Of a stretch of DNA of 64,000 nt, positions 56 to 1,966 are shown piece after piece. This stretch comes from Shouchella rhizosphaerae. Its GTDB lineage: Bacteria; Bacillota; Bacilli; Bacillales; Bacillaceae_D. Under the pieces are notes generated by a model. It did not search any database. It was not told the DNA's origin and saw only the letters and a list, made by a program, of their open reading frames with translations. The stretch covers positions 63,134-127,133 of the forward strand of contig NZ_FRBS01000005.1 in NCBI RefSeq assembly GCF_900142675.1, read 5' to 3'. Every line of letters starts with the position of its first letter. Position 1 is the first letter of the stretch. The translations under genes were made by a program, and so were the position numbers.

Positions 56-362
56 GCCTCGGACTAAGACAGGCGAGGTCAATCGTAAACTTTAACAATG
101 ACGGTTTCTCTTTGATCAAACGTTCCCCCAAACGCCTTTGAGACCAACAGCTTTGGCCGTTTGAATAACAGTAGGCAAATCTTAACTTAAAGTAAATAAA
201 CGCCCAGACAAACTTACCCTTTTATTGGGAAATATACTATTAGTTACTAGGAATGACATTTACCTAACTGCCATTTTAAGGATTTTTCATGTTTTCATTC
301 TTCAAAAATGGAAAATTCCCAACTGCAATAAACGAATTTTCCCAATGTCAAACCCGCTATTG
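56..362. other. intergenic stretch upstream of the AimR-like gene
   Basis: About 300 bases without a convincing gene. A weak inverted repeat (GCCTCG / CGAGGT, near 55-85) could be a terminator for the upstream gene. A 62-codon open frame at 225-413 lacks a good ribosome site and has no recognisable content, so I regard it as chance. The stretch is AT-rich and probably holds the promoter of the downstream signalling pair. Confidence 0.4.
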
Positions 363-390
363 CTAGCACTTTTTTATGTTATAGTGCTAG
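363..390. promoter_or_regulatory. inverted repeat, candidate operator upstream of aimR-like gene
   Basis: Perfect 8-bp arms CTAGCACT (363-370) and AGTGCTAG (383-390) are separated by 12 bp. A TATAGT-like -10 hexamer (380-385) overlaps the right arm, and the gene start lies 28 bases downstream. The geometry fits a repressor or autoregulator site; a hairpin is the alternative. Characterised AimR sites are also inverted repeats, but with shorter arms and a longer spacer, so AimR binding here is only a guess. Confidence 0.4.
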
Positions 391-418
391 TACACCGGAT
401 ATCGTGGAGGTGACCAGC

Positions 419-1534
419 TTGGCTTGGATCAGTGAAGAAAACAAGGCGTTACTGGCAAAAGAAGGCATGAAACGTGGACAAACGCTTACATACGATTCGG
501 TTGTACAATTGACCAAAAAGTATCCTTCGCTAGAGTTTGAGGATATATTGACGATCGTGAAGTATGTGGATGAAGATCATTTCAAACCTCTCATGATTTC
601 ATATTGTAAAGACGCTAAGAAGCTCCAAGAGGTTTATTCTTCATTTGAATTTGCTTTTGTTTATAAAGATTTAGCACTTATTGATTATCTTATCAATCGT
701 CACCAAAACGATGTATTATTGACTCATTGCTGTAAAGTTTATAGTTTAGGAAAGCGTTTATTAGAGAATAACATATCGGCTGAGAATCTTTTAATTAGTA
801 CCCAATCTTTGTTGGCTACGAACGAACATGATGCTACTTATATAAAATTAAAGCTTTTAGAATTCACAGCCTTTTTAAGGATGAAACAATTACAAACTGC
901 ATTTTATTTACTACAAAAACTTGAAATTACGATTAGTCAATTGGACAATCGATACTTAAAAACTGTCTTCGCTGCTCGTTTTTCTTGTAACTTAGCTCTA
1001 GGCTACTTGAATACTCATGCTGACTTTGAGAAGGCAGAACTTTATGCTTTAAGCACTGTTGTTAATCCAACTTCAGAAAACATCCTCTTAGGAGCTGCTT
1101 ATAGGATTTTAGGACAAATTTATCTATATCAAAAAAACAAATTCGATCAATCCTATGAGCATTTTCAGTTAGCAATATCTATTTATGAGGAAATTAATGC
1201 CCACGACCAAATAGATAGTATTTTATATCAAGATATTGTATTTTTGCATAATCTTCATAATAAGTATATTGATTTAAATGAAAAAGTTGATTTAGAGGAA
1301 CAAGCACACCAACATATAGTAAGAGGCAATAGAAAAAGAGCATTAGAATTGTTAAATTTACAGGAAAGTAAGTACGGTGCTTCAAAATATAGCTTTTTTT
1401 ATCGTGCTAAAGCTACAAATAACATTTCTTTCTATATGAACGCTTTAAAGATTGCAGCAAAGGAAGGAGAGATTCCTGTCTGTTATTGGATGTTTGAAGA
1501 ATTCGACAAATTGATATTAACAACGCTCAACTAA
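419..1534 (+). CDS. AimR-like arbitrium-type receptor (RRNPP/TPR family transcription regulator)
   Basis: Probable peptide-controlled DNA-binding protein of 371 residues, close to the length of AimR from SPbeta-group phages. The TTG at 419 is preferred because GGAGGTGA ends five bases before it; the upstream GTG at 404 has no ribosome site. The first ~60 residues would be the HTH region. Residues ~60-365 are helical repeats with the TPR-like alternation of AimR. Two blocks resemble AimR as I remember it: the N-terminal FEDILTIVKYV...LMISYC stretch, and a C-terminal block beginning DLEEQAH (near residue 291) followed by NRKRALELL and a YRAKATNNISFYMNALK segment. A Rap or PlcR/NprR relative is the alternative, but Rap proteins usually start with a different three-helix bundle. 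The peptide gene begins 15 bases after the stop, as in aimR-aimP pairs. No phage genes are visible nearby. Confidence 0.68.
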   Translation: MAWISEENKALLAKEGMKRGQTLTYDSVVQLTKKYPSLEFEDILTIVKYVDEDHFKPLMISYCKDAKKLQEVYSSFEFAFVYKDLALIDYLINRHQNDVLLTHCCKVYSLGKRLLENNISAENLLISTQSLLATNEHDATYIKLKLLEFTAFLRMKQLQTAFYLLQKLEITISQLDNRYLKTVFAARFSCNLALGYLNTHADFEKAELYALSTVVNPTSENILLGAAYRILGQIYLYQKNKFDQSYEHFQLAISIYEEINAHDQIDSILYQDIVFLHNLHNKYIDLNEKVDLEEQAHQHIVRGNRKRALELLNLQESKYGASKYSFFYRAKATNNISFYMNALKIAAKEGEIPVCYWMFEEFDKLILTTLN

Positions 1535-1549
1535 AAGGAGGCTTAAAAA

Positions 1550-1672
1550 ATGATAAGACAACTATCAGTAGCCTTATTAGTAGCCTTTGTTTTAAGTTCT
1601 TCTCCCTTATATCCTACTACTATGGATAGTCACCAGCCCTTAGGAGGGGTTGGCGGGGCCGACAGCTTTTAA
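1550..1672 (+). CDS. short exported signalling-peptide precursor (AimP/Phr-like)
   Basis: A 40-codon gene with a strong AAAAGGAGG ribosome site, starting 15 bases after the receptor stop. The product starts MIRQ, followed by a hydrophobic stretch (residues ~5-18, VALLVAFVL) typical of Sec-exported pro-peptides, then a short polar C-terminus, HQPLGGVGGADSF. AimP and Phr precursors are usually 35-50 residues with this layout, and the mature peptide is cut from the C-terminus. The GVGGA segment recalls arbitrium hexapeptides, which often end in GA or GG, but here three more residues (DSF) follow, so the mature peptide is uncertain. The same gene pair could be a chromosomal quorum system rather than a lysis-lysogeny switch. 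Confidence 0.65.
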   Translation: MIRQLSVALLVAFVLSSSPLYPTTMDSHQPLGGVGGADSF

Positions 1673-1706
1673 ACGAGGTTGGGACTTAGCTAGCAAAAAT
1701 AATTAC

Positions 1707-1749
1707 AAAAAGGTTCTAATCATCCTTTTTAGATGATCGGAACCTTTTT
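1707..1749. terminator. strong hairpin terminator after the peptide gene
   Basis: AAAAAGGTTC plus ATCATC pairs with GATGAT plus GAACCTTTTT, giving a long stem with T-runs on both strands. It would end transcription of both the peptide gene and the convergent csbD. It sits inside a wider inverted repeat, TTGGGAC (1679-1685) and GTCCCAA (1767-1773). That frame around a variable terminator stem resembles dispersed GAGGTTGGGAC elements I remember from other Firmicutes. Confidence 0.8.
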
Positions 1750-1786
1750 GGTTTTCTATATCTCTTGTCCCAATACTAAGCCTATT

Positions 1787-1966
1787 TTACTCCTTCATCC
1801 TCTCTTTAGCTTCCCCCTCCATCTCTTGGGCTTTGCCTTTTAGTTTGTCTTTCTTGCCGTCTGCTTGCATTTTTTTATTGTCTGCCGCTTTTCCGGCAGC
1901 TTCTTTGGTTGCTCCTTTTGCTTTGTTTGCTGCGCTTTTCATTTTGTCGGTTGTTCCGTTTGCCAT
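1787..1966 (-). CDS. csbD: CsbD family stress protein
   Basis: A 59-residue, very hydrophilic, Lys/Ala/Glu-rich protein without aromatic residues. The pattern MANGTTDKMKSAANKAKG followed by a KDKLKGKAQEMEG segment is characteristic of the CsbD family (small, helical, general-stress proteins of unknown biochemical role). The start is fixed by AAAAGGAGG eight bases upstream. CsbD in B. subtilis belongs to the sigma-B regulon, and a sigma-B-like promoter is visible upstream here. The gene stands alone, convergent with the peptide gene. Confidence 0.85.
   Translation of the reverse strand: MANGTTDKMKSAANKAKGATKEAAGKAADNKKMQADGKKDKLKGKAQEMEGEAKERMKE

Follow-up and report, generated by a model that had tools for sequence, protein, structure and literature searches.

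The window, i.e., the whole 64,000-nucleotide stretch that was analyzed, corresponds to bases 63134–127133 of contig 7 in the 4.24-Mb genome of Shouchella rhizosphaerae (hereafter G000). Close to its left end, the window encodes a 371-aa peptide receptor of the AimR branch, predicted to lack a helix-turn-helix (HTH) domain (positions 419..1534, forward strand), with a TTG start codon located 7 bases past GGAGGT in the ribosome-binding site gtggaggtg (404..412, forward strand). A 40-codon open reading frame (1550..1672, forward strand) begins 15 bases beyond the receptor stop codon, with the ribosome-binding site AAAGGAGG (aaaggagg, 1534..1541, forward strand), and is followed by a hairpin terminator with a T run (1706..1750, forward strand; z −4.57, none of 200 shuffles being equally stable); this hairpin is missing from the listing of a pattern-based terminator scanner. 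The small frame, its strong ribosome site and the terminator had all been proposed in the initial annotation and are confirmed here: the receptor gene and the gene for the predicted exported 40-codon peptide are real. Next comes csbD (1787–1966, reverse strand; Pfam CsbD, 1.4e-14).

The product of the small gene is a putative propeptide with a secretion-like N-terminal signal, as judged by eye and by a simple rule, and its C-terminal end, QPLGGVGGADSF, is likely the pheromone region, judging from the sequence. When a single rule was applied (a secretion-like frame with a ribosome-binding-site score of at least 5 that starts between −25 and +80 relative to the receptor stop codon), candidate propeptides were found behind 35 of 50 Shouchella AimR-like genes, orthologues included, compared to 7 of 501 other open reading frames, which is more than chance would give. 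The annotated arbitrium precursor of phi3T is recovered by a similar scan for ribosome-binding sites. At the same locus, the peptide ends in QPHGGSGIVISD in the genome G001 and in QSHPNHGL in S. shacheensis (G007). The earlier interpretation of the peptide end as an arbitrium-like GVGGA core with three extra residues falls away, because the other peptides have no such core in common and the notion of extra residues is thus baseless. Behind one receptor of another genome (G008:C6, L047, downstream of 9436, reverse strand), there are two candidate propeptide frames whose ends (ETFGNPPVNVGS and VPFGGPPVHVGT) are related; the ribosome-binding site of the second is weaker.

Chromosomal setting

The initial annotation placed the locus outside any visible prophage and allowed for a prophage edge to the left of the window. 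The first statement holds and the second does not: the 20 kb to the left of the window contain ordinary chromosomal genes and an LXG toxin operon (by eye; of eight proteins compared with Pfam, four were assigned to a family), and no prophage was seen in this nearest 20 kb. To the right of the receptor, csbD is followed by an oxidoreductase gene and then by wall-polysaccharide genes, the latter identified by eye. The flanking blocks can be aligned with other genomes, at ~96% identity in G001 and 91–96% in G010 and G011. In S. shacheensis, the surroundings align in part, and the receptor sits at the same place, between homologs of the left-side HAD hydrolase gene and the right-side oxidoreductase. 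Searched against phages, plasmids and viral contigs, the window protein had no match, and a search of viral contigs with the phage-type relative of L079 had none either. The locus is chromosomal.

The alignment with the G001 flank is broken by a transposase-like insertion and an altered LXG region; two genes in the LXG immunity region of the G001 counterpart (L042), 5.5–7.8 kb upstream of the receptor, resemble an IS21-type transposase pair. A gene for a DNA glycosylase-like protein lies outside the window on its left (L007:13483–14425); it is split over three frames, corresponds to a single 303-codon frame in G011, and is likely a pseudogene in the genome of the window.

The AimR-like family in Shouchella

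The receptor is a member of the AimR branch by both profile and fold. The NCBIfam AimR profile NF038310 matches it with 104.3 bits (cut-off 70, E 7e-30), and the structural model (pLDDT 89.9), which has the AimR solenoid fold, fits AimR structures best among the families listed in the fold search. Rap structures rank under all AimR structures and align only from residue 65 of the model on, the first 64 residues being extra. The closeness to AimR that had been read from the sequence alone is thereby borne out, with two exceptions: no HTH is predicted, and the Pfam AimR family PF22871 matches neither the window protein, even at E 1, nor L042, its G001 counterpart, at E 0.1; the same family does match the relatives L043 and L009. 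The N-terminal block, which had been cited as a mark of AimR likeness, is in fact the part that differs. A sequence search of solved structures with the window protein retrieved two entries, both taken as chance matches: a nucleotidyltransferase (0.0013, spanning 41 residues) and a superoxide dismutase (0.81).

AimR-like genes are present in all 13 Shouchella genomes, at 52 places, including four in the genome of the window and 15 in G004 (16 in a profile search). Two remnants, in G010 and G011, are left out of the receptor counts, which reduces 52 to 50. The counts of 23, 30, 40, 50 and 93 used throughout include orthologs and therefore do not represent independent events. G025, which has internal stop codons, was excluded, G022 was omitted from the second tree, and L092 duplicates the G007 row.

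Among the 50 full-length genes, 12 encode a Cro/C1-like HTH and 38 do not. Some of the HTH-type receptors (L088, L090, L091) are identical or nearly identical to receptors in predicted viral contigs. The 38 HTH-less genes form one clade with support 100/99 (93/95 without the N-terminal columns); one member, in G004 (r22), has phage-like neighbors. A second group of HTH-less receptors, of 325–331 aa, occurs in a different genus of the same family (G024, G026, G029, G033) and branches beside phi3T AimR and G022, so that the tree needs two changes. The receptors of this other genus (L126, L127, L128, L129) are independent of the Shouchella clade, and their propeptides end in units like NPEGSDRVKS; the L126 propeptide has this unit twice. 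The tree being unrooted, a domesticated, phage-derived origin and a bacterial origin followed by transfer to phages are indistinguishable.

G004 has a distinct repertoire, with no Rap match (E 1e-15) and 15 AimR-like genes in 2.6 Mb. In three of its receptors (L058:8460–9872, L063:3911–5287, L072:9170–10618), a GerE/LuxR-type HTH is added at the C-terminus (1.5e-14 to 1.4e-8), no propeptide being found behind these three genes, and a fourth, shorter frame also carries both the AimR-like and the GerE part. These fusions tentatively suggest that the family relies on a separate partner for DNA binding. We name no such partner, because the GerE domain of L072, the one that was searched, matches other genes in G000 and G007 at 2.9e-8 or weaker. 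A search for the origin of the GerE domain produced no clear donor.

Predicted loss of the helix-turn-helix domain

The labels HTH-type and HTH-less were assigned by reading the N-terminal sequences. In the model of the window protein, three helices (6–14, 25–34, then 40–50) precede residue 51, and the VIA alignment pairs the model, starting at residue 4, with AimR, starting at residue 22. These observations are consistent with an alternative that we regard as unlikely, namely, that the receptor still binds DNA, through a degenerate or unusual N-terminal domain, and acts on its own promoter or on another gene. However, the model of the phage control L088 has helices at 2–14, 19–26, 30–37 and then 44–54, such that, in the models, HTH helices 2 and 3 are replaced by a single helix in the window protein. 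In alignment A1, the N-terminal segment is shorter by 4–9 residues (30–32 residues in 11 HTH-less rows vs. 36–39 in six HTH-type rows), and there is no Pfam HTH match in the window protein, L042, L043 or L009. A profile of the HTH region gives at least 18.6 bits for 12 of the 15 HTH-type sequences, each left out in turn, and at most 4.2 bits for all 42 HTH-less sequences, which is inside the range of shuffled sequences (top 5.2 of 840); given that three HTH-type receptors escape this profile as well (phi3T, 3.7 bits; G022, 4.7; phi18-2, −0.2), failure of the profile alone is weak evidence. The first 45 residues carry a net negative charge in 33 of the 42 HTH-less sequences, compared to 2 of the 15 of HTH type.

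The promoter target that such a DNA-binding receptor might recognize would be a perfect 8-bp dyad, CTAGCACT / AGTGCTAG (363..390), which overlaps the promoter around a possible −10 region and has the same letters in G001, but is missing from the repeat listing of the S. shacheensis ortholog. A different dyad, likewise of CTAG type (TACTAG / CTAGTA), is similarly placed before r1 and r7 (L009, L045), near the likely −10 element, as judged by eye. On the strength of the models and profiles, the window receptor appears to have lost the HTH of phage AimR.

A promoter box shared with Rap genes

Upstream of the receptor gene, there are two copies of a sequence box, one in reverse orientation (ATTGGGAAAAT, 336..346, reverse strand) and the other in forward orientation (TTGGGAAAT, 225..233, forward strand). 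This box is common to other AimR-like genes and to Rap genes. In its general form, TTGGGAAA[AT], sought within 300 bp upstream, it precedes 17 of the 23 HTH-less receptors outside G004 (orthologs included), all 17 at −76 to −105, and 6 of the 12 HTH-type receptors, although just 69 upstream bases were available for one phage-type gene (L066); by comparison, 12 of the 607 other open reading frames in the same stretches have a box within 300 bases. Block-shuffled upstream regions contain it in a mean of 0.22 of 23 cases. The form ATTGGGAAAWT occurs at 16 sites in the genome of the window (5 for the reversed control); three of the four receptors own one of these sites, and a further one precedes a gene whose product has Rap proteins as its nine best solved-structure matches (RapJ, 1.4e-23).

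Rap-like matches number 93, orthologs included, in 11 of the 13 genomes, with 0–11 per genome and none at E 1e-15 in G004 or G007. Promoters were read for 30 of these 93 (L145–L174), and 25 of the 30 carry the box, 21 at −77 to −94 and four at −176 or −177 in reverse orientation. The 21 boxes share their orientation with 13 of the 17 receptor boxes; the box is reversed in the window, G001, S. shacheensis and one G009 copy. Counting against the link between box and receptor, 6 of the 23 HTH-less receptors outside G004 and all 15 in G004 are without it. Furthermore, the box alone does not imply a Rap-like output because it is also found in front of half of the HTH-type receptors of phage type. 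A literature search for the letters of the box returned unrelated word matches only.

Exchange of the sensor part and propeptide as a cassette

Comparison of the window with G001 shows that G000 and G001 are ~96% identical up to base 581 and again from base 1785 on, such that the promoter and the first 54 residues of the receptor are kept, and the first 120 nucleotides of the receptor gene are even 100% identical. The intervening segment (582..1784), which includes receptor residues ~55–371, the propeptide gene and the terminator, is divergent, with mostly 41–60% identity per 60 bases inside the receptor. Thus, the sensor part and the propeptide gene have been replaced as a cassette between two 96%-identical genomes.

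A second locus shows the same arrangement in four genomes, each of which represents another species, with two receptor types (G000 and G011 vs. G001 and G010) that agree in near-identical N-termini, in ~150 upstream bases and in the downstream flank. Further upstream, the sequences are alike only in G001 and G010, so that the left flank of this locus is variable. G010 and G011 are 98–100% identical in the downstream flank, yet have different types, which means that the types cross species lines. At a third locus (r2 vs. r14 and r15), no swap was observed. The first locus is reduced in G010 and G011 to a short C-terminal remnant, whose DNA is 77.6% identical to the G001 type along 437 bases, and neither the G001 nor the G000 propeptide is present there.

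The neighboring LXG operon

The LXG (type VII secretion) operon is divergent from the receptor gene and begins 494 bases from its start; the operon proteins next to the receptor are YwqH-like (the first gene), DUF5344 and LXG, according to Pfam. Because of this proximity, the operon was initially favored as the regulated target, in which case the pair would control the toxin and the toxin type and signal type would constitute one kin-recognition locus. We now consider this explanation quite improbable. The toxin tip, like the receptor, differs between G000 and G001, and in G010 and G011 the operon is absent from this place along with most of the receptor; S. shacheensis, however, retains the receptor but has no LXG match in its genome. 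G010 carries the same operon start elsewhere in the chromosome (L196, G010:C7:81000–83100; 99.3% identity over 763 bases) with only 69 bp of upstream DNA in common with the window operon, which indicates that LXG modules move.

Regarding regulation, PMC12935306 reports that, in B. subtilis, expression of the ywq operon, which encodes the LXG toxin YwqJ that matters in competition, is lower in a rapP comA double mutant, a parallel to the YwqH-like first gene here. Against such regulation, the box is absent from the 300 bp upstream of all 14 other LXG operons with a YwqH-like first gene (20 LXG stretches were compiled including that of the window, and five of the 19 others show no such gene). 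Among these stretches, L200 has a box site inside the first gene, and L191 has two far upstream.

An LXG gene occurs within 12 kb of 9 of the 40 HTH-less places (the two remnants included), compared to 1.55 expected, and of 0 of the 12 HTH-type places; since orthologs are counted, the chance values are too small, and about five independent HTH-less places remain when orthologs are counted once. Rap genes are near LXG beyond expectation as well (6 of 93 within 12 kb, orthologs included, 1.93 expected), so that LXG proximity may reflect common variable regions. Four of the 93 Rap-like matches are within ~1 kb of an LXG gene. The LXG toxin operon is probably a mobile neighbor.

Another alternative, that the locus is a decaying, now functionless leftover of an earlier prophage arbitrium system, would account for the broken gene in G010 and G011 but is very improbable, given that G000, G001 and S. 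shacheensis all retain open frames, ribosome-binding sites, the box and the pheromone gene, that the genome of the window has four AimR-like genes, and that the start of the receptor gene is unchanged between G000 and G001 despite the divergent sensor part.

Proposed function and relation to known systems

We regard it as reasonably probable that the locus is a chromosomal peptide-signaling pair of Shouchella, in which an HTH-less receptor of the AimR branch acts through Rap-like protein contact, is regulated via the box together with Rap genes, and has its cassettes exchanged. Under this hypothesis, the propeptide would be exported, trimmed to a short C-terminal pheromone and re-imported, whereupon the pheromone would bind the concave TPR solenoid of the receptor. 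Being without an HTH, by prediction, the receptor itself would not act by DNA binding; most likely, it binds a protein partner, which it inhibits or releases in the fashion of Rap, and the conserved N-terminal ~54 residues could be part of the output surface. A host regulator might switch the receptor gene together with the Rap genes via the box, and exchange of the sensor part with the pheromone would yield private signal types at one locus. The pattern in G004, with no Rap, 15 AimR-like genes and three GerE fusions, would fit the need for a separate DNA-binding part.

More tentatively, a broader scenario is possible rather than probable: a branch of arbitrium receptors lost the DNA-binding domain inside bacteria and, under the host Rap promoter element, converged on the Rap mode of action by protein contact; cassettes are exchanged between species, such that neighboring strains use different peptides; and in G004, where Rap is gone, the receptors reached 15 copies, some of which regained DNA binding through fusion with a LuxR-type HTH.

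The locus is not an arbitrium module, nor the protein an arbitrium receptor, in the defining sense: of the features of AimR in SPbeta/phi3T-type phages (NF038310, PF22871) that were tested, the HTH (by prediction), the phage and an aimX-like gene are all absent. As the initial annotation correctly stated, nothing resembling aimX follows the receptor; there is the terminator and then the convergent csbD, and the same strand has only a 36-codon frame starting within the terminator and short frames antisense to csbD. The window receptor further differs from phage AimR in the peptide end, in the promoter box common to host Rap genes and in the absence of a PF22871 match. Like Rap-Phr of Bacillus, it combines a TPR solenoid without an HTH with its own peptide gene, and the same promoter box precedes both in Shouchella.

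The Alkalihalobacilli presumably include bacteria now named Shouchella. Chromosomal systems of Alkalihalobacilli have been described as subfamily 21, which branches within AimR in the sequence tree (PMC12700828, Extended Data Fig. 10 legend), and this is likely the published home of the Shouchella AimR-like family; the available part of that paper contains no mention of HTH loss in this subfamily, the promoter box, cassette exchange or GerE fusions, although it does report HTH loss in subfamily 17 of Anoxybacter fermentans. The AloR-AloP systems, reported from Paenibacillaceae, are similar in having many paralogs per genome and a downstream propeptide and in being bacterial rather than phage systems, but, according to PMC7425212, all Alo receptors have an N-terminal HTH, which is not predicted for the window receptor. 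In the literature covered, with most subscription papers and supplements outside its scope, nothing on HTH-less AimR, the box or cassette exchange was recognized. Part of the picture, the existence of AimR-like systems on chromosomes, is thus already published; no report of the box, of the cassettes or of such systems having lost the HTH was found in this literature.

The HTH loss, the box in common with Rap and the pherotype cassettes are specific and testable and would surprise specialists. If true, one more HTH loss, this time within the AimR branch, would imply that receptors have repeatedly changed from binding DNA to contacting proteins, and it would connect receptors of the arbitrium type with host quorum sensing. 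The common box and the cassette exchange offer direct handles on this biology, namely, on what regulates the box, on the partner that the conserved N-terminus may contact and on whether cassette swaps set strains socially apart.
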